Positions 2,443 through 31,033 of a stretch of DNA of 32,773 nucleotides are shown one piece after another (positions within the stretch are counted from its first letter, which is position 1; each line of letters opens with the position of its first letter). The notes beneath the pieces were generated by a model that worked only from the letters and a program-made list of their open reading frames with translations, ran no database searches and was not told the origin of the DNA. The position numbers and the translations under genes are program-made. The DNA is from Promethearchaeota archaeon (GTDB lineage: Archaea; Asgardarchaeota; Lokiarchaeia; Sigyniarchaeales; SOKP01), in contig JAEOSD010000011.1 in the NCBI GenBank assembly GCA_016840545.1, positions 1 through 32,773 on the forward strand. The letters are read 5' to 3'.

Positions 2443-5400
2443 TTACTTCTTCTTCTTTTTAGTTAAATCCTTTAACATCTCTTTAATCTCATCAGCTTTT
2501 TCTTTATCCTTTGATAGCTGCATTTCTTCTCGTTTTTTAGCAGCATCCTCCTTAGAACTCTTAATTTCATTTATAAGTTCTTGCTTTAAATTGATTAATT
2601 CCTTCATATCTTTTCTAAATTTTTTTGCCGCTTTTTTCTCTATTTCTTTTTCTTCTTTTTGTATTAATTTCTGTTCTTTAATTTGTTTTTTGATTAAATG
2701 TGAAACTTCACCGGTCATATCGCTTAGTTCGCCAATAGTCTCTTGGATTTTTATCTCTTTTTCCTTTAATCGAATTTCTTCTAAGCGTTTTTTACTAACT
2801 AATTCTTCATAAATTTTTTGTATCCTTTTTTCTTCTTCTTTTACTTTTTCTTGGAGTAGTCTAGTATTTTCAATTTCTTTCTCAATGAATTTTGTTTGCT
2901 CATCCCAACCAATTTCGTTAAATTTTGCAATCGCTTGTTCAAAAAAATTATAAGCTTTTTCAAAATCGTGATGAATGGTTAACCGCTTTCCCTCATCTAT
3001 TAATTTTAACCCTTCATCCTTTAACTGATCGGCATATTGTTGTTGTTGTTTTAATTGGCTCCTCTTTTTCTGTTGTTCTCTTTTCCTTCTTAAATACTCT
3101 TCACGTCTCTGTCTAATTTCTTCTTGGAATTTCCCATATTCCCTTTGTCTTTGAATTCGTATTTCTTCTTCTCGTTTTTTCTTTTCTATTAAATTTTTCT
3201 TTTCTTGTTCTAAATCCTTTATTAAACTATTAATGCTATTTATTTCAGGTTCCCAACCAACTTTTTCAGCTAAAATGTTCCTTGCCTGATTATATAAAGA
3301 TATGGCATTATCATAATCTGGCATTTTCCTTATAAGGAAATTACCTGCTTTTTCTAAAAGAGAATAAGCAGCCTCTCTATTGCTTAATTGTTCTTGGGCC
3401 AACCTTTCTCGTTCTTGAAGTGCCATTTTTTGCGCTAATTGCTTTTCCTTTTCATATTTTCTTCTTTCTTCGATAAGAACTCTTAATTTCTTTTCTTCTT
3501 CAATTTTTGCTAGTTCTCTTTTCAATTTTGCTTGTTGTTGAACAAATTGCTGTTTTTTAAGATTTTCTACTTTAACGATCATCTCAGTGATAGAATCAGT
3601 TGGAAATTGTATTTCATTTAAAATTAACATGACTTGTCTATAAATATTTATTGCCTTATCATAATCCTTTGTTTTAATGAAATTTTCAGCGTCGTCTAAA
3701 ATTTTAAATGCTTCTTCTTTCTTTCCTTCCACTTTGGCTTTAACTTTTTCTATTTCTTGAATTTTAATTTTCTTTTCTTTTAGTCTTGCTTTTTCCCTAC
3801 TTATTTGCTCAGCTAACCTTTTATTAAATTTTTTCTGCTCATTCTCTTTTTGAATTTTGATCTCTAATTCCTTTTGTTTCTCTAATTCTTGCTCTCTTTT
3901 CTTATCAGTGACTTTTAAAATCATTTCTCGTACAGTTTCAGTTGGAAATTGAATTTCATTCAAAATTAATTCTGCACTATGATAAAAATCGAGTGCTTTA
4001 TCATATAGAGCTGCTTTTAAAAAGCTTTCAGCTTGGTCTAAAAGATCAAATGCATCTTCTTTTCTTTTGTCCATATATTCTTTAACAATTTCACGTTTTC
4101 TTAGCTCAATTTGTTTATTTTTTATTTTTTCTTTCTCAAAGTTCATATATTCTACAATTTTTTGCTGAAAAATTTTTTCCTCCTCCTCTTTCCTAATTTT
4201 TTGTTCTAGATCATAGTGTCTTGCTAAATCCTTTTCTCTTTTCTTCTCTTGGATATTTAAAATTAATTCTTTAATAGCATCCGTAGGGTACTGAATTTCA
4301 TTTAAAACTAATTCTGCTTGGTGATAAAGTTCAATTGCTTGCTCATACAATCCTATATTCACTAAATCCTCTGCTTTATCCATTAAATCAAACGCTTCGA
4401 TCTTAAGTGAATTTATTTGTTCCATTATTACTTCTTTCTTTTCAATTTCAATTTTCTTTGTTTTGAACCTTTCCCTTTCTCTCTTCATTTGTTCGGCAAG
4501 TTTCATTTCAAATTTTCTTTCTTCTTCAATTTGTTTTCTTGCTAGCTCTTTTTCTCTTAGCTTTGCTTTTTCCTTTTCTTCTTTTTTGAAATTAATTTCA
4601 TTAATTGTTTCTCGAATTAATTTTACATACCCGCCCTTCCAACCAATGCCGTCTAATAAATCTAGAGCTTGTTGGTATGTTGCCATAGCATCTTCAAAGC
4701 TTTCTTGATTCAGTAAAGAATCACCTTTATCAATTAACTTAAAGGCTTGTGCTTGTTTAATAAGCTGTTGAGCAGATAACTTTTTTTTTTTAACCAGTAT
4801 TTCTTGTTTTTGTTGCATTTTTTTAATTTCAATTTCTCTTTGGCGTTTTATTCGGTTAAAAAATTTAAAATCTTCCAATTCTTTTTTAACACCCTCCTCA
4901 ATGCGTTTTTGTTTCAGTAATTCCTTTTCCTTCTTTTTTATATCGATTTCCATGATAGCATTGTTTATAATTGGGATTTCCTCCTTCCATTGTATCTGTG
5001 CAAAAATATTAGCAACATTCCTATACGCCTCAATCGCTTCGTTAAATCTACCTAATGAAAGAAAATTTTGTGCCTTTTCAATCAGAATAAAAGCCTCACC
5101 TCTCTTTTGTTCACGATATTCTATTTCTTTATTTTTATCTCTTAATTTCAAAGCTTTTTGCTTAAACATTTCTTTTTGTAATTTTAGCTTATCTACAATA
5201 TTTATCTGAAATTCTTTTTCTCTTTTTTCTCTATCAAGCTTCTTTTGTAGCTCTCCTTGGTTCTTTAAAATTAGGTCCCTTTTTTGATTCTCGATTTCTA
5301 TTATAGCATTCCCTATAAATTCTACTTCATCATACCATTGAATTTCTGCAAAGATATTAGCTACAATATGATAATATTCAATTGCTTTATCAAAATTAGC

Positions 5401-7395
5401 TTCATTGATACATTTTTGAGCTTGATCTAGTATCTTGAAAGCATCTTCCTTCCTTTTCTGTCGATATTCTAACTCTTTATCTTTTTCTCTTATTTTTACT
5501 TCTTTTTTCCTCAGCTTCTCTCGTTCTGTTCTTAACTGAGTCGTAATTCTTTCATGAAAATCATATTCTTCTTTTTGTCTTTCAATTTCTCTTTGGATAT
5601 CTTTTTGTTTTTTTATTTCAATTTCGTTCTTCATATTTTCTAATTCTTTAATCGATGCTTCAATCAGAGGTACTTCTTCCTGCCATTGAATACTCGTAAA
5701 AATGTTAGCTGCATTTTGATAAGCTAAAATTGCATTATCTAAATTCCCCATTTTAATATACTTTTGGGCTTCATCTAGCGCTTTAAATGCGGAATCTTTA
5801 CGTTGCTCGATAAATCCTTGCTTATCCTTATCCAATTGGATTTCAATTTCTTTTTCTTTTAACTTTTTGCGTTCTCTTTCTAATAGAGTTGAAATTTGCT
5901 TCTGAAACTCTAATTCTTGTTTTGATTTTTCCTCTAATTTTTTCTGTGCTTCAAACTCCTTTTCATATTGTGTTTCTTTTAGTTTCTTCACACTATCGAT
6001 AGTGGTTTTAATTGTAGGAACATAAGATTCCCAACCTGATCCAAGATCAAGGAGTATTTCTAACGCATTTTGATATTCTTTAATTGCTCCATTAAAATCT
6101 TGATTTTGCTGGAGTTTATTATCAGCTTCATCTAAAAAGGTAAAAAATTGACTCTCTTTTTCCAATTGTGATTGTCTTTTTTGTACATATTCCCTATGTT
6201 GTACTTCAAAATCTTTTGCTGTCTGTATAACATGTTCTTTTTCTTTTAGAAACAACTGGTCTTGTATTTTTTCAAGATTATCTTCTCTCTTTTTTCTTAT
6301 ACCATCTAATTCTTCTTCATTATTTTGCTTTTCCTTTATATCATCTATAAAATTCACAACAGGTTGGATATATGAGTCCCATTCAATCGATTTAAATAAT
6401 TCTATAGCTCTTTGAAATTTCTCGATGGCTTTTGCGTATTGCTTTTCCCTTTCTAGTTTTTTAGCAAAATCGATCAAATTAAATGCTTCAATTTGTATAT
6501 CTTCCTCAGATTTTCTTTTATACTCAAATTCGACTACTTCAGAACTATCTGGTAACATTTGGGAATCAATTACAGAATCATGAATAGCATAAGATTCTTC
6601 AATTTGTTGTTTTGTTTCAAACCTTTCATGAATTTCTTTCTCTCTTATAAGCTTTTCAATTATAAATTGAAGATTTTGCGTCTGGTCCTTCCATCCGATT
6701 GAATTTAATAAATTAACTGCTTTTTTATAATTTTCAATTGCTGCATCAAATTTTTTATTTTTCTCATGAAATTTAGCATTATCAATAAATGCAAAAGCAT
6801 CATTTTGTACTTTCTCTTGTTTTGCTTTCATTTCTTGATATTTTCTAAGGTGTTCTGCCTTTTCAATACTCTTTATTTCACCAAAAGCATCCACTACCTG
6901 AGGTTTCCCTCCTATTTGCGAAGGTAGTTGTATAGAAATATCTTCATCACTCTTAGTAGTTTTTTGAGTTTCATTTTTATCTGTAAGAGCAGCAACTTTC
7001 ATTTTTAGATTTTGCAGTTGTGATTCAGACCACCCAGCTTGAGTTAATAATTTTATAGCAGAATTGTATCGCTCGATTGCATCCTGAAAACTTCCATCTG
7101 ATTCTAGTTCAGAAGCTCTGTCAATTATAACAAAAGCCTGATCCTGAAATTTTTCAATTTGAGCACTTAGTTGTTCATGCTGATATAATCTCTGTTCTTT
7201 TATGAAAGTCTTTAAACCCTCTATTCTATCATACAACTCACTAATTCTATGCATCATATAACCACTTTTTTTAAGATTATCGGCAGCTAATTGATAATTT
7301 TCAATAGCTTCCTGTGCCTTTCCTTCCGCTTCAAACCTCTGAGCTCTCTCTAAGTATTTGAGGGCTTCTTGAGCTAAATATTCATTATTCTGCAT
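2443..7395 (-). CDS. Giant repeat protein: ~14 TPR/MIT-like helical units separated by charged coiled-coil segments
   Basis: 1650-aa ORF. Repeated pattern AFxxLDxAexfxxxxxYdxAIxxYxxAxxIlxxI(Q/G)(W/F/Y)xxeixxixxxIxxi followed by K/E/R-rich helix. Units counted by eye. Confidence 0.9.
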   Translation of the reverse strand: MQNNEYLAQEALKYLERAQRFEAEGKAQEAIENYQLAADNLKKSGYMMHRISELYDRIEGLKTFIKEQRLYQHEQLSAQIEKFQDQAFVIIDRASELESDGSFQDAIERYNSAIKLLTQAGWSESQLQNLKMKVAALTDKNETQKTTKSDEDISIQLPSQIGGKPQVVDAFGEIKSIEKAEHLRKYQEMKAKQEKVQNDAFAFIDNAKFHEKNKKFDAAIENYKKAVNLLNSIGWKDQTQNLQFIIEKLIREKEIHERFETKQQIEESYAIHDSVIDSQMLPDSSEVVEFEYKRKSEEDIQIEAFNLIDFAKKLEREKQYAKAIEKFQRAIELFKSIEWDSYIQPVVNFIDDIKEKQNNEEELDGIRKKREDNLEKIQDQLFLKEKEHVIQTAKDFEVQHREYVQKRQSQLEKESQFFTFLDEADNKLQQNQDFNGAIKEYQNALEILLDLGSGWESYVPTIKTTIDSVKKLKETQYEKEFEAQKKLEEKSKQELEFQKQISTLLERERKKLKEKEIEIQLDKDKQGFIEQRKDSAFKALDEAQKYIKMGNLDNAILAYQNAANIFTSIQWQEEVPLIEASIKELENMKNEIEIKKQKDIQREIERQKEEYDFHERITTQLRTEREKLRKKEVKIREKDKELEYRQKRKEDAFKILDQAQKCINEANFDKAIEYYHIVANIFAEIQWYDEVEFIGNAIIEIENQKRDLILKNQGELQKKLDREKREKEFQINIVDKLKLQKEMFKQKALKLRDKNKEIEYREQKRGEAFILIEKAQNFLSLGRFNEAIEAYRNVANIFAQIQWKEEIPIINNAIMEIDIKKKEKELLKQKRIEEGVKKELEDFKFFNRIKRQREIEIKKMQQKQEILVKKKKLSAQQLIKQAQAFKLIDKGDSLLNQESFEDAMATYQQALDLLDGIGWKGGYVKLIRETINEINFKKEEKEKAKLREKELARKQIEEERKFEMKLAEQMKRERERFKTKKIEIEKKEVIMEQINSLKIEAFDLMDKAEDLVNIGLYEQAIELYHQAELVLNEIQYPTDAIKELILNIQEKKREKDLARHYDLEQKIRKEEEEKIFQQKIVEYMNFEKEKIKNKQIELRKREIVKEYMDKRKEDAFDLLDQAESFLKAALYDKALDFYHSAELILNEIQFPTETVREMILKVTDKKREQELEKQKELEIKIQKENEQKKFNKRLAEQISREKARLKEKKIKIQEIEKVKAKVEGKKEEAFKILDDAENFIKTKDYDKAINIYRQVMLILNEIQFPTDSITEMIVKVENLKKQQFVQQQAKLKRELAKIEEEKKLRVLIEERRKYEKEKQLAQKMALQERERLAQEQLSNREAAYSLLEKAGNFLIRKMPDYDNAISLYNQARNILAEKVGWEPEINSINSLIKDLEQEKKNLIEKKKREEEIRIQRQREYGKFQEEIRQRREEYLRRKREQQKKRSQLKQQQQYADQLKDEGLKLIDEGKRLTIHHDFEKAYNFFEQAIAKFNEIGWDEQTKFIEKEIENTRLLQEKVKEEEKRIQKIYEELVSKKRLEEIRLKEKEIKIQETIGELSDMTGEVSHLIKKQIKEQKLIQKEEKEIEKKAAKKFRKDMKELINLKQELINEIKSSKEDAAKKREEMQLSKDKEKADEIKEMLKDLTKKKKK

Positions 7396-9871: not shown

Positions 9872-10399
9872 ATGTCAAGTTTTAAATTAAAAGTATTGCT
9901 TACCGGAGCCGCGGCCGTTGGAAAAACGAGTTTGGTCCAAAGGTTTATAAAGAATCGATTTGCGGCAAACTATAAATTAACTGTCGGAGTAGACATCTTG
10001 ACCAAAGACGTAGAATTCAGATCGGGAGAAATAGCTACCTTAAGTATTTGGGACATCGGAGGACAGCAGCGTTTTGAATTTATTAGATCAACATTTTATA
10101 AGGGAGCTGCTGGAGCGCTATTAGTTTTTGATTTAACAAGAGAACAAACATACACAGAAACAAGGAAATGGCTTACTGAAATACGCCAATTTGCTGGAGA
10201 AAATATCCCATTTGTATTAATTGGGAATAAGGCAGACTTACTTGAGGACGTTGGAATGGTGATTGATCGGAATGAAGCCAGTTCTTTTGCGGGAAAAGAA
10301 AAAAGCATGTACATTGAAACTTCAGCTAAAACGGGTATTAATGTTGATCAAGCGTTTACAGAATTAACTAGAAGAATTATTGATTCCCGAACGCAATAA
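9872..10399 (+). CDS. Rab/Ras-like small GTPase
   Basis: G1 GAAAVGKTSL, switch I TVGVDIL, G3 WDIGGQQRF, G4 GNKADL, G5 ETSAKTG. No C-terminal Cys/CaaX (ends RRIIDSRTQ). Confidence 0.95.
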   Translation: MSSFKLKVLLTGAAAVGKTSLVQRFIKNRFAANYKLTVGVDILTKDVEFRSGEIATLSIWDIGGQQRFEFIRSTFYKGAAGALLVFDLTREQTYTETRKWLTEIRQFAGENIPFVLIGNKADLLEDVGMVIDRNEASSFAGKEKSMYIETSAKTGINVDQAFTELTRRIIDSRTQ

Positions 10400-12026: not shown

Positions 12027-13958
12027 TTAATCGAATTTTTTTACTAGTTCTTCTAATTCATGAATTTGGCTATTAATATTTTTCTCAATTTCTCTTAATT
12101 TATTTTTCTTATCCTCAAGTTCTTTAGTAGTAATCTCCCCTGTTAATTCTTTCATATCAAATTCTAATGACATTTTTGAAATATTTGCCCTCTTAATTTT
12201 TAAATCCATCAAGGATTTTTCAAGATCGCCCTTCTGTTGAATGTCTAATGTACTAGGTTTGACTTGTGCAGTTTTTTGTTGTATGGGTGTAATAGGTATA
12301 TCTGGAACTGGCTTTTTAGGAGGTGTTACTGGTTTTTTTTCTGGTTTAATTAACATTGTTGGAACGACTGGTACAGGAGTATGTGGTTGTTCAGTTGGTT
12401 GAATCTCAGGTGGTTTCTGAGTAACCGGAGTTGGTTTTAATTTTGGTGGGGTTACTTGTTTTATTGATTTTGGTTTGATTAATTTAGTTGGAGCAACAGC
12501 TTTAGGTTCCTTTTTTACTTGTTGATTTTCAACTTGAGCATATGGAGATATTGTTAACTTTTCCTTTGCATCCTTAGGAACTGTTGTTATAGTTTTAGGT
12601 CTTTCTTTTACCATAAAATCTTCCGGATTTAGATTTAAACCCACATCTAGGGGGGGTGATTCAGGTTTTTGGAGACTTTCTGGTTCAGCTATAGGTTCTT
12701 TTGGTGGAGGAGGGGGTGGGAAAGCTTTTTTTTCTGGAGTTTCAGGAACGCTCTCTTCTTCAATTATTTTAACAAGTTTCTTTTGTACTTTAGGTTCTAT
12801 GGGGTCTGCTGATTTTCCTGGAATTTTTGGTTTCTCAAGTGCTATAGGTTCCTCTGGAGGTTTTCGTAGATCAGGAGATGGCGGAGGTGGAATCTCTTCT
12901 GATTTAGCTTTTTTAGGCTCGGTAATCGCTGGAGAGGTTGGTTGTGGAGGTGACATTTGCTGAAGCATGTTTTTAATTTTTTGAGATTTTTCGAAAAATT
13001 CTCTTCCTAATGAATCATCACCTAATTCAATACATAAATCACTAATTTCCTCAAAAATTTTTGCTGCTTTTCCAAACTCAGCATTCTCTAATGCTTTTGT
13101 GGCTTCTTCTATATGAGTATCTCTTTTCAATAAAGGTTGCAATAATGGTGATACTTCTGCACTCATTTCTAAAATATCTGCAATAATTGTTATCATTTTA
13201 TCTCTGTTAACAGGATCTTTTGCAATCATTGAATAAGTCTTTAAACCTAAAATTTTTTCAATTTGATCAGGCTTCATTGCAGTCTGTAGATCTTGTTTAT
13301 TCCCTATTACAGCGGTATGAGCATGGGGTGCTTGTTCTTTTATTAATTCCAAGAAAAACTTACTTTTTTCTACATTTTCTAAACTAGAATCTGTAATTAA
13401 AAGGACAGCATCGCTACCTTTGATAAAATTATTCCAAAGATAACTAAATTGCTCTTGACCTGCAAAATCCCAGAGGTGAAAATGTAATTTTCCAATCTTA
13501 ATTGTAGCAATATCACCAGTAATTGTTGGAATATGCTGCATAGGAATTTCTTCTGCTTTTATAAGCCTTGTTATTGTTGTTTTACCAACTCCAGAAAATC
13601 CTACCAGTGATATTTTTGGTCTTAAATTTTTATGAATTGCATCAATGGTAGGATCAAAAACTTCAAAGGTTTTATCATCATATTTGTGTTTAATAATATC
13701 TTCAAATAAATTTAAAAACTGTTTTTTACATTTTATTAATTCTTTTTTAATATTATCAAAATTATCAGTTAATCCTGTAACAAACAAAAACATTACTTCT
13801 AATTTTGTTTCGGTGATATATGAAATTCTATATTTATAATAATCATGATAGTTTACTTTATCTGTATTTTTAACAAAAGCATCTTTCATCAAGTCAACAA
13901 CTAGTGCATTAAATACTTCTGTTTTTAGCGCTTTCCCAAAATGTCTATAATAGATCAA
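12027..13958 (-). CDS. Longin-like N-terminus + Arf-like GTPase + TPR-like hairpin + Pro-rich linker + C-terminal coiled coil
   Basis: G1 GFSGVGKTTI, G3 LWDFAGQEQFSYLW, G4 GNKQDL; PPPPSP and PPPPPP stretches; C-terminal charged helix. The TTG start in the ORF track probably truncates the N-terminus; the frame is open to about 13994 (see findings). Confidence 0.88.
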   Translation of the reverse strand: MIYYRHFGKALKTEVFNALVVDLMKDAFVKNTDKVNYHDYYKYRISYITETKLEVMFLFVTGLTDNFDNIKKELIKCKKQFLNLFEDIIKHKYDDKTFEVFDPTIDAIHKNLRPKISLVGFSGVGKTTITRLIKAEEIPMQHIPTITGDIATIKIGKLHFHLWDFAGQEQFSYLWNNFIKGSDAVLLITDSSLENVEKSKFFLELIKEQAPHAHTAVIGNKQDLQTAMKPDQIEKILGLKTYSMIAKDPVNRDKMITIIADILEMSAEVSPLLQPLLKRDTHIEEATKALENAEFGKAAKIFEEISDLCIELGDDSLGREFFEKSQKIKNMLQQMSPPQPTSPAITEPKKAKSEEIPPPPSPDLRKPPEEPIALEKPKIPGKSADPIEPKVQKKLVKIIEEESVPETPEKKAFPPPPPPKEPIAEPESLQKPESPPLDVGLNLNPEDFMVKERPKTITTVPKDAKEKLTISPYAQVENQQVKKEPKAVAPTKLIKPKSIKQVTPPKLKPTPVTQKPPEIQPTEQPHTPVPVVPTMLIKPEKKPVTPPKKPVPDIPITPIQQKTAQVKPSTLDIQQKGDLEKSLMDLKIKRANISKMSLEFDMKELTGEITTKELEDKKNKLREIEKNINSQIHELEELVKKFD

Positions 13959-14000
13959 ATCACTGCCCTTATAAATGTATACTTGTCTTAGAATCGTGAA

Positions 14001-14005
14001 TCACC
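14001..14005 (-). promoter_or_regulatory. Putative Shine-Dalgarno GGTGA upstream of a possible ATT start at 13994
   Basis: Minus strand reads TTATATATAATTTTATGGTGATTCACG-ATT-CTAAGACAAGTATAC. GGTGA lies 6 nt before ATT. Confidence 0.4.
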
Positions 14006-14034
14006 ATAAAATTATATATAAGAACTCCAATTTT

Positions 14035-14526
14035 TTAACTTGAAATAAATTTAACAAGATCTTTTATAATTGAATATTTTTTTTCTTTAAATTTTTCATG
14101 TTTGATAGTATCTTCAATTTTTTTAATCTCCTTTGAAAAATCAAAAATTGAAAACTCATTTATCTCTTGTTTTTTAGAAGTTTCACCTAATTTTTTTAAA
14201 AACACACTAATACTTGGCATAAGTTTTGCTAAATTAACGTCTAAATCTAATTTTGAAATTAAGATTAACTCTTCATTGAATGTAAATAAATAGTTATAAT
14301 CTTGAGCTTCTAAAGCAAAAGAATTTATTTTTTTCAAATTCAAATCTTTAGCAATATCTTGAGAATTAGCTATAAGCGATAGAATTTTTTGGGGTATCAC
14401 TTTTCCCTTAGAAAATTCTTTAATTGCCGTTCCAAGTATTATACCATATCGATTTGCTATTGCACATTCTGAATTTAGTTCTGTTTTTAATTGTGAGATT
14501 ATATCATCGTAGTTAATTTGTTTCAT
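14035..14526 (-). CDS. Roadblock/LC7-like small protein
   Basis: 163 aa. Pattern LKTELNSECAIANRYGIILGTA...KILSLIANSQDIAKDLNL...LFTFNEELILISKLDLDVNLAKLMPSISVFLKKL fits the roadblock fold as judged by eye. It lies directly upstream of the longin-GTPase. Confidence 0.6.
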   Translation of the reverse strand: MKQINYDDIISQLKTELNSECAIANRYGIILGTAIKEFSKGKVIPQKILSLIANSQDIAKDLNLKKINSFALEAQDYNYLFTFNEELILISKLDLDVNLAKLMPSISVFLKKLGETSKKQEINEFSIFDFSKEIKKIEDTIKHEKFKEKKYSIIKDLVKFISS

Positions 14527-17788: not shown

Positions 17789-18751
17789 TTATATATTAAT
17801 AGCATTTTTTCTTTTATACCATTCTAAATAATCTTTTAATCCACTTTCCTGATCATATTTCGGTTTGAAATTTAATAATTCTTTAGCTTTAGAGATATCA
17901 GCATAACTATTATCAATATCACCCGGGCGTGGGTCTGTGTAATTGATTTTCAGATTCTGTTTTTTTGTAATTTTTAGCATCAAATTTGCCAATTCAGTTA
18001 AATTTATAGGGCAACCGGCACCAATATTAAACAATTGTCCTGAAAAATCTTTTTCTACCACTAATAGGTTAGCTTGAATAATATCTTTAACATAAGTGAA
18101 GTCTCTTGAATTTTTGCCATCTCCAAATATAATTAAATCCTCATCTCTTATAATCCTTCCTAACCAAATCGCAATAACTCCACTATAAGGAGAATCCCTC
18201 TGCCTAGGTCCGTACACATTAAAATATCTTAAAATATTTGTTCTTAATCCGTAAATAAGTCTAAAAACCTCCATATACGCTTCACATGTTAATTTACTGA
18301 TACCATATGGAGATATTGGCTTTAATTTCATGTCTTCATCAAGCGGTAAGGTTGAAATATTACCATATACCGAAGAACTGGATGCGAATATTATTTTATC
18401 AATATCATTTTTTCTTGCAATGTTTAATATATTTAAAGTACCATTTATATTGACATTATTACAAGAATCTGGCATTAATATTGATTGAGGTACACTAGTA
18501 AATGCTGCTTGATGATAAATTATATCAATCTCTTTAGAAATTTCCAATAAATAATTAAAATCTCTAATATCGGTTTTATAAAATCGAAAATTTTTATTTT
18601 TTAAAGCCCATTCTAAGTTATCTAATCTCCCATTATATAGGTTATCAATTCCAACTACATTTGCTCCCAATTTAAGTAATTCATCTGTTAGATTACTTCC
18701 TATAAATCCAGCGGCTCCGGTGACTAAAATATTCTTTCCTTCAACAAGCAT
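17789..18751 (-). CDS. NAD-dependent epimerase/dehydratase (UDP-glucose 4-epimerase-like extended SDR)
   Basis: GAAGFIGSNL Rossmann motif; SSSSVYG; PYGISKL (YxxxK); RYFNVYGPRQ. Confidence 0.9.
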   Translation of the reverse strand: MLVEGKNILVTGAAGFIGSNLTDELLKLGANVVGIDNLYNGRLDNLEWALKNKNFRFYKTDIRDFNYLLEISKEIDIIYHQAAFTSVPQSILMPDSCNNVNINGTLNILNIARKNDIDKIIFASSSSVYGNISTLPLDEDMKLKPISPYGISKLTCEAYMEVFRLIYGLRTNILRYFNVYGPRQRDSPYSGVIAIWLGRIIRDEDLIIFGDGKNSRDFTYVKDIIQANLLVVEKDFSGQLFNIGAGCPINLTELANLMLKITKKQNLKINYTDPRPGDIDNSYADISKAKELLNFKPKYDQESGLKDYLEWYKRKNAINI

Positions 18752-18952
18752 AATCGAACAATTAATATTATAGCATATAATTCAAAAACGCAAAAAAAAT
18801 TTTAGCAATGTTTTTTTAAATTTTTCATTATTATTTAACTTACGATTTTTCTCTTGTTTAAAATCAAATAAAGAAAAGAAAACAATCCTTATTATTCTTA
18901 AAATTAAAATTTATTTTATAAATCTAACTATAAATCATAAAACTGATTTTCT

Positions 18953-19939
18953 ATGATAACTGAAAGCAGAATTTTAATCACAGGAGCGGCAGGCTTTATT
19001 GGATCACATTTAACTGAAGTTTTATTAAAAAATAATAATTATTTGATACTTCTAGATAATTTTAACGAATACTATAAAGGAAAAGAAGAAAGATTAAGAG
19101 ACATAATTAAAAACTATAAAAGTGAAGAAAATTATAAGTTAATAAAAGGAAATCTTTTAGATACTTCAATTTATAAACAAATCGATAAAGATATTGATTA
19201 TATTTTTCATTTAGCTGCTCAAGCAGGCGTAAGATATTCTATCAATAATCCAATTGAAGTTATAAACAATAATGTAATTAGTACCATTAAAATATATGAA
19301 TTTGCTTTAAATACGGAAAAACTTAAAAAATTGATATATGCTTCATCATCATCCGTATATGGAAATCCAAGTTATACGCCTTGTGATGAGGGTCATCAAA
19401 AAAATCCAATATCTCCGTATGCTTTATCAAAATTGACGGGAGAGATATATGCAGATTATTATTATCGTGAATTTGGAATACCTATTACGTCTTTAAGGTT
19501 TTATACGGTGTATGGTCCAAGAGGAAGACCTGATATGGCGATATATACGTTCTATAATTTAATGTTCCAAAATAAAGAAATAAGCATTTATGGAAATGGT
19601 GAACAACTTAGAGATTTTACCTATGTATCTGATATTATAGATGGACTAATTTTAGCAGGAGAAAAAGATGAATCTAAAGGTGAAGTCTTCAATCTAGGAT
19701 ATTCTAATCCGATAAGCGTGAATCAGTTAGTTGATAAAATGTATAAAATAACAAATAAAACTAAGAAGATTAAATATTTACAAAAACAAAAAGGGGATGT
19801 TAATATAACTCATTCAAATATAAATAAAGCTAAGAGGATATTGAATTTTAGACCAAAAATAGATATAGATGAAGGTTTAACTTTACAATATCATTGGCAA
19901 CTGGCTTTTTTTAATGGATCAAAGAAATATAGCTTATAA
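18953..19939 (+). CDS. NAD-dependent epimerase (UDP-glucuronate/UDP-glucose 4-epimerase-like SDR)
   Basis: GAAGFIGSHL; LAAQAGVRYSI; SSSSVYG; PYALSKL; RFYTVYGPRGRPDMA. Confidence 0.9.
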   Translation: MITESRILITGAAGFIGSHLTEVLLKNNNYLILLDNFNEYYKGKEERLRDIIKNYKSEENYKLIKGNLLDTSIYKQIDKDIDYIFHLAAQAGVRYSINNPIEVINNNVISTIKIYEFALNTEKLKKLIYASSSSVYGNPSYTPCDEGHQKNPISPYALSKLTGEIYADYYYREFGIPITSLRFYTVYGPRGRPDMAIYTFYNLMFQNKEISIYGNGEQLRDFTYVSDIIDGLILAGEKDESKGEVFNLGYSNPISVNQLVDKMYKITNKTKKIKYLQKQKGDVNITHSNINKAKRILNFRPKIDIDEGLTLQYHWQLAFFNGSKKYSL

Positions 19940-20111
19940 GTCTAAATATTCAGTTTTATAGAAGATAGTTAGGAAAAAATTCTGAAATTTTTAATAATCA
20001 ATTCTATAGATAATAAAAATAATTATATTCATATGTGTCATATTAAAACATAGATATTTATTTCTTAAAAAACAATAAAATAACCCAAATTTAAAAAAAA
20101 GAGCTTATTTC

Positions 20112-21074
20112 TTGATTATTAGAAGTATAAAGGGAAACAAATATATACAAAAACCCTCTCAAAAGCCTACAATTGCAAACCTATTTCAAGAATTGTATAA
20201 ATACATTGAAAATTTTAAAAATTTTGAAGATCAGGTAATAATTTCCATAGTTATACCTTTATATAATGAGGAAAAGACAATTAGGAAAGTTCTAGATTGT
20301 CTCCCCAACCATAATTCAATTGAAATTATCGTGGTTAATGATGATTCTACTGATAATAGTTTACACGAAATTGAAATAGTTCAATCCTATAGAAATATCA
20401 AAGTAATAAATCACAAAATCAATAGGGGATATGGAGCAGCTATAATGACAGGAATTAAACAAGCTAAGGGAAGAGTCATTGTTTCAATGGATTCTGATGG
20501 ACAACATAGCCCTGATGACCTTTTCACATTGGTAAAACCTATATTGGATGAGAGGGCAGATTATACAATTGGATCTAGATATCTTGGAACTTATTTTTAT
20601 CAATTACCTTTATCAACGCGATTAGGAGAATTATTTGTTGAAAAATTAATTCGAATCTTTTTTGGAAAAAAGATTATGAATAATCAAAATGGTTTTCGAG
20701 CTTTTAATAGAAAAATCTTACCAATATTTAATGATCTTAAATATGATGGATATGCGTTTTGTACGGAACAAATACTTAAAACTTCATTAGAAGGATATAA
20801 AATTAAAGAATGTCCAATTAAAGTCTATGATCGGAAGTATGGAACTTCTCATATTATTTTATCAAAATTAGCTATAAACATTGTCACCTTATTTTTTAAT
20901 TATATTATTAAGAAGATTAGAATAACTGTTATAAAGCGAGATAAATCTGGAACATTAAAAATTTATGAAAAATCCCTCAAGAGAAAAAAAGAATTACTTA
21001 ATTTAAAATTCAAAAAAGAATACACTTATTTGAATTCAATTATTTTTCTTGAACGAGGATATACAATTGCTTAG
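20112..21074 (+). CDS. GT2 family glycosyltransferase (polyprenyl-phosphate mannosyltransferase-like), TTG start
   Basis: IVIPLYNEEKTIRKVL; VVNDDSTDNS; SMDSDGQHSPDDL; GSRYLG; NNQNGFRAFNR. Confidence 0.9.
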   Translation: MIIRSIKGNKYIQKPSQKPTIANLFQELYKYIENFKNFEDQVIISIVIPLYNEEKTIRKVLDCLPNHNSIEIIVVNDDSTDNSLHEIEIVQSYRNIKVINHKINRGYGAAIMTGIKQAKGRVIVSMDSDGQHSPDDLFTLVKPILDERADYTIGSRYLGTYFYQLPLSTRLGELFVEKLIRIFFGKKIMNNQNGFRAFNRKILPIFNDLKYDGYAFCTEQILKTSLEGYKIKECPIKVYDRKYGTSHIILSKLAINIVTLFFNYIIKKIRITVIKRDKSGTLKIYEKSLKRKKELLNLKFKKEYTYLNSIIFLERGYTIA

Positions 21075-21222
21075 TAAGATTTATAATCTTAAGCTTTCCT
21101 CTAAAATTGTTAAATTTTAACTATTTTTAGCTATTTAATTAAATTTTTATTAAATTACCATTTATATTATTATAATACTTAATATTTCAATAGAATTGGA
21201 ATTTTAGAATTAAGGTTTTAAT

Positions 21223-22065
21223 TTGAAAACTGCATCTAGTACTAATGCTACAAATATTGCTACAGAAAGGAAAATAATTAAAACCCGAAACAATTTTCAT
21301 AAATTTAATGATTTAATTAATTATCTTGAGAATCATAAAACTAACAGCGACACTGTGCTTCTTTCAATAATTCTTCCAATGTATAATGAAGAAAAAACAA
21401 TTCGTGCTGTATTAGAAAGTTTACCTAAGTATGATTTAATTGAGATAATTGTTATCGATGATCATTCTACAGATAATAGTATTAAAGAAATTGGGAAAGT
21501 AAATTCCCCAGAAAGAATAAATATATTACAACATAAGGAAAACAAAGGTTATGGGGGCGCTATAACTACGGGAATGAAACATGCAAAAGGAAAAGTTGTT
21601 GTCTGTATGGATAGCGATGGCCAACACAGCGCTGATGATCTATTCGATTTAATAAAACCAATTATCGAAGGTAAATCTGATATAGTAATTGGTTCAAGAT
21701 ATTTAGGTGCTTATAATTATCGTTTACCTTTATTAAGACAATTTGGAGAAATTCTGGCAGAGAAAATAATCAGAATATTATTCAACTTAAAAATAAAAAA
21801 TAATCAAAATGGTTTCCGTGCCTACAATAGGAAAGTTCTTAAAGTATTAAAAAATGCGAGATACCTTGATTATACTTATTGTACAGAGCAAATTTTAAAA
21901 GCTTCGATTTATGGCTTTAAAATTAAAGAATCCCCCATAAAAGTCTATGGTCGTCAACATGGTGCCTCAAAAATGACTATTATACGACTTGCACTTAATA
22001 TCTTTTCATGTATGTTAATATATTACTTTAAAAAAATCAAAATTAATTCTACAAATAAGCAATAA
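21223..22065 (+). CDS. GT2 family glycosyltransferase, tandem paralog of the preceding gene, TTG start
   Basis: IILPMYNEEKTIRAVL; VIDDHSTDNS; CMDSDGQHSADDL; GSRYLGAYNYRLPL; NNQNGFRAYNRK. Confidence 0.9.
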   Translation: MKTASSTNATNIATERKIIKTRNNFHKFNDLINYLENHKTNSDTVLLSIILPMYNEEKTIRAVLESLPKYDLIEIIVIDDHSTDNSIKEIGKVNSPERINILQHKENKGYGGAITTGMKHAKGKVVVCMDSDGQHSADDLFDLIKPIIEGKSDIVIGSRYLGAYNYRLPLLRQFGEILAEKIIRILFNLKIKNNQNGFRAYNRKVLKVLKNARYLDYTYCTEQILKASIYGFKIKESPIKVYGRQHGASKMTIIRLALNIFSCMLIYYFKKIKINSTNKQ

Positions 22066-22073
22066 GAAATTTT

Positions 22074-22095
22074 TCTCAAATTTTTTGAGATTTTT
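22074..22095 (+). terminator. Putative hairpin plus T-tract (tctcaaa-ttt-tttgaga-ttttt)
   Basis: Perfect 7-bp inverted repeat with 3-nt loop, then 5 T, starting 9 nt after the TAA of the second GT2 gene. The stem is weak, with only two G-C pairs. Confidence 0.4.
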
Positions 22096-22146
22096 AATGC
22101 TAATAGAATCATAAAATTTTTGATTTGCTACTCCTATAATAATCCC

Positions 22147-23217
22147 ATGAAAAAAATAATTACCTGTATTGGAATTCGTCCAGATATTATACGTTTATCT
22201 CAAATAATCATGAAATTAGATAAATATTTTGAAAATATTCTTGTCGATAGTGGTCAGCATTACGATTATAATTTAAATAAAATCTTCTATGATCAACTAG
22301 GTGTCCGGATACCCGAATATAACCTTGATATTAAAAGTGGGACCCATGCCACTCAAGTAGCAAGACTTATGATTGAATTTGAGAAGGTGGTAATGCATTT
22401 AAATCCTGAATTTGTTATTGTTTTAGGAGATAATAATAGCAGTCTAGGGTTTGCGATAGCCACTTCTAAATTGAATATTCCCCTAGTCCACATAGAAGCG
22501 GGTATGAGAAGTAAAAACTGGCTTATGCCAGAAGAAAAAAATCGTAAAATAATCGATCATTTGGCTGATATGAATCTCTGTTATTTACCTGAACATAAAG
22601 AAAATCTAATAAGGGAAGGATTAAATCCAAGAAGATGTTGGGTTATAGGTAATCCTATTTTAGAAGTTGTAAACGCAGTAGAAACGACATTTAAACAAGA
22701 TAAACCGTTTTACCTAGTCACATGTCATAGAGCTGAAAATACGGAGATGAAAGAAAACCTCGAAACTATATTAAAATTTTTAGGAGAGTTATATGAAAGA
22801 AAAAATGTAGAAATAAAATTCATTCTTATGCCAAAAACTAAGAATATGATGGAAAAATATGGCTTAAAGTTTCCAAAAGGTATTAATCCGATTCCTCCTC
22901 AAGGTTTTATAGAATTCCTTGGTATGGAAAAAGAAGCACAGTTAGTTTTAACTGATAGTGGGACCGTTGTTGAAGAGTGTGCCATTCTAGGAACCCCATG
23001 TATGACAATAAGAGAAAGTACTGAAAGGATTGATTTAATTGAACTTGGTGTAAACGTATTAACTGGTATAGATAATAATCAAATGCTTGATTCAGCAGAA
23101 TTAGCATTATCTCGTAAAGTTGAACCCGTATCTCATTATGGTAAAAATATATCTGATAAAATTTGTAATATATTGATAGGAAATTCTTTAAACTTCTATA
23201 AAAACTATGAAAGGTAG
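22147..23217 (+). CDS. UDP-N-acetylglucosamine 2-epimerase family, WbjD/CapG/FnlC-like subgroup
   Basis: CIGIRPDIIRLSQIIMKL; VDSGQHYDYNLNKIFYDQLGV; GDNNSSLGFAIATSKLNIPLVHIEAGMRS; PEEKNRKIIDHLADMN; LTDSGTVVEECAILGTPCMTIRESTERID. I prefer the internal ATG at 22147 over the TTG at 22120 in the ORF track. Confidence 0.85.
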   Translation: MKKIITCIGIRPDIIRLSQIIMKLDKYFENILVDSGQHYDYNLNKIFYDQLGVRIPEYNLDIKSGTHATQVARLMIEFEKVVMHLNPEFVIVLGDNNSSLGFAIATSKLNIPLVHIEAGMRSKNWLMPEEKNRKIIDHLADMNLCYLPEHKENLIREGLNPRRCWVIGNPILEVVNAVETTFKQDKPFYLVTCHRAENTEMKENLETILKFLGELYERKNVEIKFILMPKTKNMMEKYGLKFPKGINPIPPQGFIEFLGMEKEAQLVLTDSGTVVEECAILGTPCMTIRESTERIDLIELGVNVLTGIDNNQMLDSAELALSRKVEPVSHYGKNISDKICNILIGNSLNFYKNYER

Positions 23218-23240
23218 TTTTTAAAGAGATTTAATTCATT

Positions 23241-24152
23241 CTAGAATTTATCCCTATTTTTTAATATATAATCTTTAAGTTCTGAAATAGCGATTTTTAT
23301 ATCTTTTTTTTCAATAACTTTATCTAATTCTGTATATTTTGTAGCAAGTGATCGGTCTACTTTCTGTTCTGGTTTATTAACTCTATTAATTTTTAACTCT
23401 TTTTCAAAAATCTCATTGAATACTTGCATTAACTGATACTTATTGACTATATTATTAGGTATATAGTGATGGATATAGGATTCATGTAGTAATTCGTCAT
23501 AAATGTTAGTTGATATTATTTTTTCACACAATTTCGCAAATTGAAGAGTAGTTACACCGTTCCATGTATGATGCTCAAAACCTCCAATTGTGCCTCCATT
23601 AGGTTGACTTAAAAACCATTCGAGTAAAAAAGAAGTTTCCTTTTTGAATTCAGGTCCAATAATAGAGCATCTTATTATTAACATTGATCCATCAAACACT
23701 TCACCAAGACTTTTTGATTTACCATATACATCTAATGGGTCATGTGGATCTTCTTCGTTGTATTTACCTTTATTTCCAGAATATACACAATCTGTTCCAA
23801 TTTGAATTATATTAATATTATGTTTTTTAGTATAACTGGCTAATTTCCATGGAAAATCAGCATTTATTTGGATTGCCCGTTTAACTCCTTCAGGATCGTC
23901 ATCTTTAGAGAAAGGTTTAGTAATTCCTATACAATTAATAATATATTCAATTTCTAAATCAAGAAATTGTTTATTTTCCAATTGATTAATGTTATTAGCA
24001 TCAAAAAGATATATATTATCATTTAAAAATTTTGGATTTCTCACAGTACCATATACGGTAAAATCAGGATTTTTTGAAAGATAATCAAAAACCATCGAAC
24101 CTAACATTCCACTTATGCCAAGAACTAAAATATTTGTCATCCTAATTCTCAC
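23241..24152 (-). CDS. RmlD-like sugar-nucleotide reductase (SDR)
   Basis: NILVLGISGMLGSMV; INCIGITKP; QIGTDCVYSGNKGKYNEEDPHDPLDVYGKSKSLGEV. The start could also be the internal ATG at 24140. Confidence 0.85.
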   Translation of the reverse strand: MRIRMTNILVLGISGMLGSMVFDYLSKNPDFTVYGTVRNPKFLNDNIYLFDANNINQLENKQFLDLEIEYIINCIGITKPFSKDDDPEGVKRAIQINADFPWKLASYTKKHNINIIQIGTDCVYSGNKGKYNEEDPHDPLDVYGKSKSLGEVFDGSMLIIRCSIIGPEFKKETSFLLEWFLSQPNGGTIGGFEHHTWNGVTTLQFAKLCEKIISTNIYDELLHESYIHHYIPNNIVNKYQLMQVFNEIFEKELKINRVNKPEQKVDRSLATKYTELDKVIEKKDIKIAISELKDYILKNRDKF

Positions 24153-24159
24153 TCTCCAT

Positions 24160-25548
24160 CTACCGATTTTCTACGTCCCATATTTCTCTTCCCCAGTAAT
24201 CTGCTGGAAAGCGATAATCATCTCCCTTACTTTCTTCAAGAGAACTCGTTGAAAAGAAAAGAATACGCGTATCTTCTTCTAATGGTCTAAAGCCATTTGC
24301 ATATCTAGGGGGAATAAATACTATTTGTGGATGTCTATCAGATAAAATAAAACGTTTAACTTCTTGGTTTTTTGAGGGAGACTTAAGATCATCTAATTTA
24401 ACAGCCGCTACAATAGCAGAACCTTTAGCAACATAAACATATTTCGCTTCATTCATATGTCCATGAAATGCACGAATCGTTGAGGTTGAAAAGTTTTGAA
24501 CTTGATAAAAGCGTTTAACACCATAAAAATTGAAATCATTAGCAAAATTTAAACTGCCTCTATCATCAACAGCGATTCCTCCTTCAATTAATTGTAAATC
24601 TCTTTTGCCAATAGTTTGTGATATTTTTATTCTTTCAGCTAATTTTAGATTAGAATAAATTCCCTTATGAAAATCTTGAACTGTAGGTGAGTCAATTATT
24701 TCCCTTACAGCATCTTCAATACCATACCTAAATTCAAAACCAGTATTCAATATTTTACTACTATCTACCATATAGCTTCTTTTATCTACAATATTTCTAT
24801 TGATTTGAATCTCGCAATTGGTAATCTCTTTTACAATTTCACCTAATCTTAATAAACTTAGATTTTCACCTCTCACGTTATAAATTCCATGTAAATTATT
24901 TTTAATAACATGTACTATCGCTCGAGAAATATCACGTATGTGTACAAATGGACGTTCTTGTTCTCCACCAAACACAGTTATTTTATTGAAATTTAATGCT
25001 CTTGCCACAAAAGTGTTTACGACTAAATCGTATCGCATTCTTGGACTCAATCCATATGCGGTTCCCAGCCTTAAGATACAATAGTTATCTTCACATATCT
25101 CTCTTATCAGGCGCTCTTGAGTATATTTTGTTTGACCATAAAAATCAATAGGAAATCCCTCATCTTCTTCTTTTACAATGATATTTGGTTCGCTTCCATA
25201 AATACTGCAAGTGCTAATGTGAACCACAAATTTTTTCATTTTCTTACAAATTTCAGCCACATTTCGTGCGCCTATGCAATTTATACCAATAGCTTGATTA
25301 GTATCTATTAAACATGCGGGATCACCCACAATTGCCGCTAGATTTACTATAATATCATAGCTTTTAACAATTTTCTCAATCTGATCTTTATTGCGTACAT
25401 CTGCTTCTATAAATGTGTTAGGAGGATGAAGATCTTTATAAAGATGATTATCTAAAATATCAACTTCCCATTCCTCTTGTTTCATAACATCATATAATAC
25501 GCTTCCAATATATCCAAGACCACCTAAGATTAAAATTTTATACGGCAT
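24160..25548 (-). CDS. Fusion protein: N-terminal NAD-dependent epimerase/dehydratase + C-terminal RmlC/FdtA-like cupin
   Basis: N-terminus LILGGLGYIGSVLYDVM; ISTCSIYG; FYGQTKYTQE. C-terminus GVKRFYQVQNFSTSTIRAFHGHMNEAKYVYVAKGSAIVAAVKLDDL...HPQIVFIPPRYANGFRPLEEDTRILFFSTSSL...PADYWGREIW. Confidence 0.85.
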   Translation of the reverse strand: MPYKILILGGLGYIGSVLYDVMKQEEWEVDILDNHLYKDLHPPNTFIEADVRNKDQIEKIVKSYDIIVNLAAIVGDPACLIDTNQAIGINCIGARNVAEICKKMKKFVVHISTCSIYGSEPNIIVKEEDEGFPIDFYGQTKYTQERLIREICEDNYCILRLGTAYGLSPRMRYDLVVNTFVARALNFNKITVFGGEQERPFVHIRDISRAIVHVIKNNLHGIYNVRGENLSLLRLGEIVKEITNCEIQINRNIVDKRSYMVDSSKILNTGFEFRYGIEDAVREIIDSPTVQDFHKGIYSNLKLAERIKISQTIGKRDLQLIEGGIAVDDRGSLNFANDFNFYGVKRFYQVQNFSTSTIRAFHGHMNEAKYVYVAKGSAIVAAVKLDDLKSPSKNQEVKRFILSDRHPQIVFIPPRYANGFRPLEEDTRILFFSTSSLEESKGDDYRFPADYWGREIWDVENR

Positions 25549-25797
25549 AGTTCATTCTTTGGGTTTTTATTCAATAGGTTATTTGATTTTTATTATTAAA
25601 GTAAAATTTAGCTAATAATAAAAATTAATTCAATTTCTAACTTTTTTGAAAGTATTAGAATGGATTTATTTCAAAATGCTATTTTTTTTCATTAGCTATA
25701 TAAATTTTATATTTATTGCTAATTTTTTTATATTTAAACATACAATTTTGATTATTTTTTAAGATTTTAAAATAAATGAATTGTTGAGAGTTGTTCA

Positions 25798-27012
25798 ATG
25801 AATATTCTTGTTCTCCAAGAAACAGATTGGCTTACTCGAGGGCCCCATACACAACATCATGTTTTTGAGAGAATTTCAAAGAATACCAATATTAAAATCT
25901 CGGTTTTAGATTATGATATTGATAAAAAAATGCATTCAAAATCAATTTTCATAAAGAAACAAATCTTTACTAACATTAATCGAGCCATAGATAATTCAAA
26001 TGTAAAAATAATTCGAACGGCTCATATTCAAATTCCATACCTTAGAAGATTTACTTCATTAATTACAAATTTTTTTGAAATGGTAAACATAATTAGAAAA
26101 AATAGACCTGATGTAATTGTAGGATTTTCTTTAACAAATGGAATAATTGGTTTAATATTATCTAAACTTTACAGAATTCCTTATGTTTTTTATTATATAG
26201 ACTTATTACATACATTAATACCGGTTCATTATACTCAGAAAATCGCTTCAATATTTTCAAGATTTTTATTTAAGAATTCAGATAAAGTTATTGTTGTCAC
26301 AAAATCTCTTCAAAAGTATATTTTAAATGAAAAAATTGAGCCAGAAAAGATTAAAGTTCTTCTAAATGGAATTTCTTTAGAAAATACAATAGTAGATGAA
26401 GAAAAGCTTAATCATTTAAAGCAAAAATATATGATTAGAGACGATGAGTTTGTTCTATTTTTCATGGGATATCTATATGAATTTGCTGGATTAAAGGAAA
26501 TTATTAAGTATTACAACCCTGATGTGAAAAAAGGAAAGTTAAAATTTAAGTTTTTAATAATTGGAGATGGAGGGATATATAACTCCCTGATTAGATATGT
26601 TGAAGAAATAAAAGCAGATTGGGTAATTCTTACTGGTAGAATTCCATTTTTTGATATCACAGAATACATTGAATTAGCTGATTTATGTCTAATGAGCTTT
26701 GATTTAAATGATATTACAAGAGAAATTACCCCAGTTAAAATTATGGAATATATGGCAATGAAAAAACCAGTTTTATCTAATAGTCTTCCTGGGGTACTAA
26801 CTGAGATTGGAAAGAATAATGGTGTAATTTTTGCTAGAAATCAGTCCGACCTTATAAAGAAAATTGAATCTTTAAGCGCTAATAAGGATAAATTAAAGCA
26901 AATTGGATTAAAAGGTTTTAAATTAATAAAAATGTATTATGTTTGGCCAAAAATTTTAAATAATTTTAAAAGAATTCTTTTCGAATTAATTAAAAATAAG
27001 AGATCAAATTAA
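25798..27012 (+). CDS. GT4-like glycosyltransferase
   Basis: GT-B pattern: SDKVIVVTKSLQKYIL; EKIKVLLNGISLE; LFFMGYLYEFAGLKEII; GDGGIYNSLI; PVKIMEYMAMKKPVLSNSLPGV. Confidence 0.88.
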   Translation: MNILVLQETDWLTRGPHTQHHVFERISKNTNIKISVLDYDIDKKMHSKSIFIKKQIFTNINRAIDNSNVKIIRTAHIQIPYLRRFTSLITNFFEMVNIIRKNRPDVIVGFSLTNGIIGLILSKLYRIPYVFYYIDLLHTLIPVHYTQKIASIFSRFLFKNSDKVIVVTKSLQKYILNEKIEPEKIKVLLNGISLENTIVDEEKLNHLKQKYMIRDDEFVLFFMGYLYEFAGLKEIIKYYNPDVKKGKLKFKFLIIGDGGIYNSLIRYVEEIKADWVILTGRIPFFDITEYIELADLCLMSFDLNDITREITPVKIMEYMAMKKPVLSNSLPGVLTEIGKNNGVIFARNQSDLIKKIESLSANKDKLKQIGLKGFKLIKMYYVWPKILNNFKRILFELIKNKRSN

Positions 27013-27015
27013 ATT

Positions 27016-27801
27016 ATGGATAAATCTAATTATAAGGAAAAACAAAAGAGAGAAAAATTTTGGTATGAACAACAAACTTTAGCTAAAAAGAAAGGCTTTT
27101 TTGGTAGTATCTTAACTTCTAATCTATTTATTTCTCCAAAGAGGAGGGCCTATACCTACTCTTCTGCTAAGAAACAGATGAATATTTTTGTTTATAATCA
27201 TCTTGATAAGAAAAAAGTTGCTAAACTATTGATAGCCCCCTGTGGTGTTGGAGACGATTTTAAATATTTAAAAGATTTTTCTAATGAGATTCATGGTATA
27301 GATCTCTCTTCTATCCCTTTAAAAGAATGTCCAAATTCCATGATAATAAAAGAAGCGGACATTTTAGATTCTGGTTATCCAGATCGTATGTTTGATTTTA
27401 TTGCCAGCCCATTATTCTTTCATCACTTATTAAAGGTAGGATTTGAACCTTTTTTAAAAGAATTTCATCGAATTTTAAAGCCTGGGGGAAAATTGGTAAT
27501 ACTCGAACCATCTGTATTTTACCCTTTAAATGCTTTTACTAGACCACTTAAAAAAATTACTAAAAATATATATGGGGAAGTTGAAGATGAAGCTCCTTTC
27601 AATCCTAAATTGCTAATAGATTCTTTAAAAAAAGTAGGCTTTATTAATTTAGATATAAAGGCTGCAACTTACAGCCATGTTAGCTTCTTAATTCCAATGG
27701 CTAAATTAGTAAATTTTGTATTTAAACCATTTTTGAAAACAGATAAATTTTGGAAATATTTCGCATTTTTAGTAATATTTTGGGGGGAAAAACCAAATTA
27801 A
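27016..27801 (+). CDS. Class I SAM-dependent methyltransferase
   Basis: LLIAPCGVGDDFKYLKDFSNEIHGIDLSS; PDRMFDFIASPLFFHHL; EFHRILKPGGKLVILEP. Starts 3 nt after the preceding GT stop codon. Confidence 0.85.
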   Translation: MDKSNYKEKQKREKFWYEQQTLAKKKGFFGSILTSNLFISPKRRAYTYSSAKKQMNIFVYNHLDKKKVAKLLIAPCGVGDDFKYLKDFSNEIHGIDLSSIPLKECPNSMIIKEADILDSGYPDRMFDFIASPLFFHHLLKVGFEPFLKEFHRILKPGGKLVILEPSVFYPLNAFTRPLKKITKNIYGEVEDEAPFNPKLLIDSLKKVGFINLDIKAATYSHVSFLIPMAKLVNFVFKPFLKTDKFWKYFAFLVIFWGEKPN

Positions 27802-27832
27802 TAACAAATTTCATGCAGGAGATGTAGGTTCT

Positions 27833-29005: not shown

Positions 29006-29083
29006 AAATAAGATTTAATATCAATCATAATCTTATACTATTAAACAAGAATAAGTTTCAAAAAAATTGACTAATTTAAAACA

Positions 29084-30310: not shown

Positions 30311-30317
30311 TTATTCT

Positions 30318-30974
30318 TTACTTTTCCTTAACACATAATATTTGAAATGCTTTAGCAGGATAATTTCTTACAAATAATTGTGTCAAATGAGCAATTCCAA
30401 ACCAAAAAAATCGGGGTTTAAATTTTAATAAGCCATATTCACCCTTTAAGAATTTCCATCCATTAATGCCTATAACCTTAAATCCTCTTTTTTTCATTTC
30501 ATTAACAGTCCATCCAGATTTATGCACGTCCCAGGGATTATTATCATATACTCCTTGAGGAACAAATCCATTTGTCGTGAAAATAATTATTTTCTTTTTA
30601 GCAATTTTTTCTATTCTCTTTAATAATAAATTTCCTTCTTCTTTTGTTAAATGTTCAATCAAGTCTAATGCAACCACACAATCAAATGAGTTTTCCTCAA
30701 ATTCTTGATTAATTTTTAATACATCTAATTGAATATATTTGTCATGAATTTTTTTGTTTTTACTACTTTTAAGCCATGGTTCGAATTTATCCACTCCTAT
30801 ACAATAAAATTGTTTTGGAAAATGTTTAAGGGGTGAATTTGAACCACAGCCTACATCAAGAATTGTTTTACAATTTCGGATTAAATTTTCTAATTCAGAA
30901 ATATATTCAAATTTTATAGGAAATTTTGAATATACTGTTTTATATAATTGTAGCAAGTGATTTTTTAATGTCAT
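30318..30974 (-). CDS. Class I SAM-dependent methyltransferase
   Basis: ILDVGCGSNSPLKHFPKQFYCIGVDKFEPWLK; FDCVVALDLIEHLTKEEGNLLLKRIEKIAKKKIIIFTTNG. Confidence 0.88.
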   Translation of the reverse strand: MTLKNHLLQLYKTVYSKFPIKFEYISELENLIRNCKTILDVGCGSNSPLKHFPKQFYCIGVDKFEPWLKSSKNKKIHDKYIQLDVLKINQEFEENSFDCVVALDLIEHLTKEEGNLLLKRIEKIAKKKIIIFTTNGFVPQGVYDNNPWDVHKSGWTVNEMKKRGFKVIGINGWKFLKGEYGLLKFKPRFFWFGIAHLTQLFVRNYPAKAFQILCVKEK

Positions 30975-31033
30975 ACTATTAAGGTTCTTAATTTATTTTT
31001 AATCATATTATTATCTATATTTATATTATGCGT

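Follow-up and report, generated by a model that had tools for sequence, protein, structure and literature searches.

A giant lokiarchaeal protein of fourteen predicted MIT-type modules joined by helical linkers of fixed length

The analyzed stretch of DNA (32,773 nucleotides; hereafter the window) is contig C212 of a 2.88 Mb Lokiarchaeota MAG. It encodes a giant protein in which a three-helix module, best matched by the MIT domain, alternates with a helical linker of fixed length (Table 1). The preliminary description of this DNA had proposed such a composite repeat of module and fixed-length helical connector, a view that the present analyses support. In eukaryotes, the MIT module docks onto the membrane-cutting ESCRT machinery, and the giant protein may be a multivalent scaffold, as yet unreported, of the archaeal group nearest to the eukaryotes.

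Table 1. Features of the giant gene and its neighborhood in the window.
Feature	Position	Strand	Remarks
E1-type (ThiF/UBA1-like) activating enzyme, 524 aa	759..2333	(-)	ThiF E=1.9e-60; conserved neighbor
Giant poly-MIT rod gene	2443..7395	(-)	1650 aa, 14 units; Pfam MIT E=1.8e-25
Conserved extreme C-terminal helix KADEIKEMLKDLTKKKKK	2446..2499	(-)	loosely MIM1-like
C-terminal helical tail (aa 1516-1650)	2446..2850	(-)	132-138 aa across strict family
Regular array, units 5-14 (aa 414-1515)	2851..6156	(-)	nine linkers, single length
Example fixed-length linker, unit 6->7 (aa 590-648)	5452..5628	(-)	continuous helix in model
Example MIT module, unit 6 (aa 533-589)	5629..5799	(-)	AF2 pLDDT 88.3; top Foldseek matches all MIT
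N-terminal units 1-4 (aa 8-357)	6325..7374	(-)	spacings 76, 113, 104
Ras-like small GTPase	9872..10399	(+)	~90% identical in genus

An HMM built from the units detected exactly 14 of them in the giant protein, the number counted earlier by hand, with starts at amino acids 8, 84, 197, 301, 414, 533, 649, 765, 881, 998, 1112, 1226, 1340, and 1459 and resulting spacings of 76, 113, 104, 113, 119, 116, 116, 116, 117, 114, 114, 114, and 119. The near-constant spacing reported from unit 4 onward was confirmed, and the hand counts (116 for both units 4-5 and 5-6) were correct at the W/F hallmark position at which they had been made; the small differences between units arise in the loop that connects helix 2 to helix 3. 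Autocorrelation, used to check the period, gave 116 as the top lag (score 0.128) and 114 as the next (0.007), the former being far above the maximum of 100 shuffles (-0.33). Glutamate and lysine account for 15.3 and 15.4% of the residues, respectively. An assembly or frame artifact was ruled out by the intact orthologs present in many independent MAGs.

The MIT domain is an antiparallel three-helix bundle of ~70 amino acids. When the whole protein was compared to Pfam, MIT (PF04212) was the best match (89.2 bits, cut-off 30, E=1.8e-25), followed by TPR_2 (8.7e-15). Scanned singly, 10 of the 14 units matched MIT (best 1.4e-6; below the cut-off where bits were shown), and TPR models matched 5-7 units more weakly. 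Modeled with AF2 from 122 unit sequences (pLDDT 88.3), unit 6 is an antiparallel bundle of three helices (residues 2-21, 24-40, and 47-82). In a Foldseek search with this model, the 11 best matches were all MIT domains (VPS4, MITD1, katanin, SKD1; probability 0.95-1.00), the katanin and MITD1 chains that fitted best having an rmsd of 1.6-1.9 Å and a query TM-score of 0.64-0.66; in the katanin entries the matched chain, judged by its length, is presumably the N-terminal MIT domain of p60. No match reached E<=0.001, as is expected for so small a fold, and the argument therefore rests on probability, rmsd, and the unanimity of the matches. The first TPR structure appeared at rank 12 with an rmsd of 9.2 Å.

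These searches also bear on the reading that the protein is a generic TPR-like or coiled-coil tether devoid of specific MIT-type binding, the MIT likeness being a product of helical-hairpin sequence. The TPR_2 match of the whole protein and the weak TPR matches of single units agree with it, and a helical, charged composition is apt to inflate such scores, but MIT outscored TPR at both levels, the closest TPR structure fitted poorly, and the three-helix units, 114-119 aa apart and isolated by ~60-aa linkers, differ from the tandemly stacked 34-aa hairpins of TPR proteins; we consider this reading very improbable. Spectrin was absent from the Pfam scan of the giant protein and from the 50 Foldseek matches listed for a model of the rod (see below), and the array does not consist of ~106-aa bundles packed end to end with a matching spectrin profile, the likeness being confined to chain topology. 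No PDB entry was retrieved at E 0.01 when the complete protein sequence was used as query. According to profile matches and structural models, each unit is thus best matched as an MIT-type module and not as a TPR or spectrin repeat; of the "TPR/MIT-like" module proposed initially, the MIT part was retained and the TPR part was not.

The nine linkers between units 5 and 14 each measure 60 aa from an invariant isoleucine anchor in helix 3 to the next unit. Automatic HMM placement gives two linker values, 62 and 59, because the position of the loop gap is ambiguous in this procedure; the helix-3-anchored alignment was preferred since it is gap-free throughout the linker. Within the giant protein the linkers share a mean identity of only 23% (13-36%), and their fixed length thus outlives their sequence. 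In 521 aligned linkers the frequencies of proline and glycine were 0.000 and 0.004, respectively, and a phenylalanine at -36 and an isoleucine at -32 were conserved. Hydrophobic periodicity peaked at 3.44 residues with a value of 0.24 (95% permutation level 0.40), and a hendecad or heptad phase was rejected as the cause of linker length because this periodicity is not significant; the linker may be a single helix or part of a two-stranded coiled coil.

The architecture of the rod was modeled with AF2 for aa 400-965, from an alignment of 19 close orthologs that has 566 columns and no gaps (pLDDT 80, pTM 0.27); confidence in the model is moderate. Unbroken helices at residues 57-150, 176-265, and 408-497 of the model span module, linker, and module; in most repeats a single helix of 90-94 residues starts as helix 3, traverses the linker, and finishes as helix 1 of the following MIT module. 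Helix 2, which is short at 17 aa, folds back, and the linker between units 7 and 8 was modeled with a break and with low confidence. The connector had been described as a fixed-length coiled coil, of which the fixed-length helix stood and the separate coiled coil did not, helix 3 being continuous in the model with helix 1 of the following unit. With ~73 residues from the start of helix 3 to the next helix 1 as counted in the sequence, the pitch is estimated at ~11 nm per repeat if the helix is straight. The predicted chain follows a spectrin-like topology in which the heads are MIT modules and a long segment lies outside the bundles. Foldseek of the 566-aa rod retrieved nothing at E<=0.001 and mostly TPR superhelices with a TM-score of ~0.1, which are uninformative for the rod; a CAPN7:IST1 structure entry was among the matches.

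The closest named relatives, with 38 loci, are all from Lokiarchaeota or Lokiarchaeia. In orthologs with 14 units, which are ~50% identical, the spacing from unit 4 onward is the same to the residue (113, 119, 116, 116, 116, 117, 114, 114, 114, 119), and linkers 2-3 and 3-4 are shorter and vary in length. This invariance is by itself unremarkable in conserved proteins, since neighboring enzymes, among them the RACo gene, are likewise poor in indels; the same control weakened the near-absence of indels as proof of a ruler. A stronger point is that the length recurs among linkers that are about one quarter identical and in distant paralogs, in which 62 is the commonest linker value (26 times, HMM placement); in the relative L062 the linkers measure 73 aa (62 + 11 aa). 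The proposal that linker length is under selection was counted as supported, the ruler, scaffold, or adaptor roles suggested with it being putative.

Unit number varies by whole units, and proteins of 1075-2927 aa with 9, 10, 14, 18, 20, or 25 units were found. Units 6-11 have a second, matching block in the 20-unit form, an extra block of four units is present in the 18-unit form, and counterparts of units 3 and 7-10 are missing from the 9-unit form. An even unit number as a rule was ruled out by the 9- and 25-unit forms. Pairwise identity is 0.64 for the modules vs 0.51 for the linkers, a difference suggesting that the heads have a role beyond spacing.

This variation is one of the points favoring a spectrin-like mechanical spacer or a cytoskeletal or membrane scaffold, in which the MIT heads would dock to a target other than ESCRT-III, such as another filament or the next rod, and length would be tuned by whole units. 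A range of 9-25 units at unchanged pitch, the spectrin-like chain topology of the AF2 model, the lysine-rich C terminus, and the presence of the MIT domain of katanin, a protein acting on the cytoskeleton, among the closest-fitting heads are all consistent with it. However, MIT modules are typically peptide-binding and are here the better conserved part, and neither a membrane anchor nor a filament-binding domain, calponin-homology or other, was detected in the Pfam scan, so that we regard such a spacer as possible but rather doubtful. As a separate observation, the genome encodes two tubulin/FtsZ-family genes.

In a sample of 148 genomes from across the phylum, the strict family was found in 26, all within the taxonomic family of the window; at E 1e-10 no genome of the sample outside that family had a member. 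Elsewhere in the order, other families have more loosely related proteins in which 3-16 units were detected. One of them, in a single-contig genome (L062:434-7687), is a 2417-aa poly-MIT protein with 16 detected units, which are mostly exactly 127 aa apart, 11 aa above the 116-aa repeat. The source genome itself encodes a second, divergent poly-MIT paralog on contig C28 (L047:8731-12864; 1377 aa, 9 units detected), which has a different, basic C-terminal ending resembling those of L050, L053, L061, and L062.

The tail of the giant protein is best conserved in its last helix, which reads (D/E)x(L/I)xxM(L/I)(K/R)(D/E) followed by lysines; the order-level relatives L049, L052, L054, L063, and L064 end alike as judged by eye. 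The MIM1 motif, located at the C terminus of its bearers, is (D/E)xxLxxRLxxL(K/R). The tail helix is loosely similar to the MIM1 of ESCRT-III, with the arginine and the last leucine not kept, and this likeness may be a coincidence of amphipathic helices.

Taken together, we tentatively favor, at somewhat less than an even chance, the reading of the giant protein as a multivalent, fixed-pitch scaffold with putative binding of MIM-bearing ESCRT-III/Vps4-type partners. A long alpha-helical rod would present MIT domains at a fixed axial pitch, each module could bind the C-terminal MIM-like helix of an ESCRT-III subunit, and many subunits would be captured ~11 nm apart along one rod. Such capture might cluster or template the ESCRT-III polymer or recruit it to a site; the MIM1-like C-terminal helix of the giant protein could serve as a ligand for Vps4 or for the MIT array of a second rod, and the neighboring E1 may mark a ubiquitin-like regulatory input. 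Candidate partners are encoded in the same genome, where vps4 (MIT+AAA+Vps4_C) adjoins an ESCRT-III gene with a C-terminal MIM1-like helix, and most relatives have two ESCRT-III classes that both end in MIM1-like helices. Pairing of Asgard Vps4 MIT with ESCRT-III MIM is backed by modeling and yeast complementation (PMC7240154), and most human MIT domains bind ESCRT-III tails, whereas those of NRBF2 and VPS9D1, and apparently ULK1/2, do not (PMC9477494). The location of the giant gene (C212) outside the vps4/ESCRT-III cluster (C47) counts against the scaffold, as do the moderate confidence of the rod model, in which one linker is poorly ordered, and the lack of a Foldseek match at E 0.001. A more specific version, a lokiarchaeal ruler whose MIT heads, at one helical pitch, would capture ESCRT-III subunits at set intervals and so template or cap the length of ESCRT-III assemblies, and whose unit number would set a species-specific length, appears unlikely.

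The E1-type gene next to the giant gene carries both the ThiF adenylation domain and the catalytic-cysteine region by which members of this class are recognized. It matches UBA1 with E=8.8e-42, and its ACTLKGLP aligns with CTLKNFP of the UBA1 catalytic-cysteine region, a block that is weak on its own. Of the 38 named loci, 34 have the gene on the same strand as the giant gene and downstream of it, and the remaining four stop at a contig edge; it is also found beside the 9- and 25-unit forms. Its products are 62-95% identical across loci. The gap to the giant gene measures 109 bp here, and many genomes have a subtilase gene on the opposite strand between the two, so that the association represents linkage and not a tight operon. 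The giant protein could accordingly be imagined as scaffold or substrate of ubiquitin-like conjugation by this enzyme, with ESCRT being secondary. The recurrent same-strand position of the E1-type gene and its retained CTLK would fit this reading, but the ubiquitin-like, E1, and E2 genes of the genome cluster elsewhere (C213 and C154, the ubiquitin-like genes on C213), neither an E2 nor a ubiquitin gene was found beside the giant gene, the spacing and subtilase insertions contradict a tight operon, and beyond the family of the window an E1 lies near a poly-MIT gene in L049 only, among the relatives examined. We judge it improbable. The neighbor was also ruled out as the sole E1 of the genome, since four ThiF-family genes of the genome pass the cut-off; of the other three, two have an E2 gene beside them.

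In several further families of the order, poly-MIT genes were found with an ortholog of the Ras-like GTPase nearby. Further along the window, an Arf-like GTPase domain lies within a 643-aa protein that is followed by a 163-aa protein with a weak CodY GAF-like match alone (12027-14526), and positions 17789-32515 hold a long run of genes resembling sugar-nucleotide epimerases, glycosyltransferases, and methyltransferases, as judged from translations only.

No published description of a composite poly-MIT protein was found in the open-access literature, the range of our search, nor did any NCBIfam entry match, in keeping with the earlier statement that the composite unit belongs to no named family. 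Many Asgard ESCRT-related architectures have been cataloged (Makarova et al., 2024; PMC10936438), and in the Asgard diversity section of that work no multi-MIT protein was seen. The surveyed human MIT proteins contain at most tandem MITs (PMC9477494). An array of 9-25 fixed-pitch MIT modules beside an E1-type gene in the group closest to eukaryotes would constitute a new ESCRT cofactor architecture and would make it possible to test by direct biochemistry whether the Asgard ESCRT system works through multivalent scaffolds; the relatives in other families of the order, including the one from a single-contig genome (L062), offer further material.

Among known systems, the eukaryotic tandem-MIT proteins CAPN7, LIP5/VTA1, and ULK1-3 contain the same module according to Pfam and Foldseek, but combine two MITs with other domains, whereas members of the giant family have 9-25 MITs joined by a fixed ~60-aa helix and no other recognized domain. 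Asgard Vps4, whose MIT domain is recognized by the unit HMM in the genome's own copy (L048), pairs one MIT with an ATPase, which the giant protein lacks. The hairpin of helices 1 and 2 is TPR-like and is matched by TPR models, yet TPR superhelices are stacks of 34-aa hairpins and the modules of the giant protein are isolated three-helix units. The extreme C-terminal position and the I/L-x-x-x-L/I spacing of the tail helix are shared with the MIM1 of ESCRT-III. Finally, in spectrin and nesprin rods, as predicted for the giant protein, the last helix of a unit runs into the first helix of the next and the rod lengthens by whole units; in spectrin, however, the long helices are packed in bundles along the whole rod, whereas the giant protein has a predicted stretch of ~60 aa outside any bundle.
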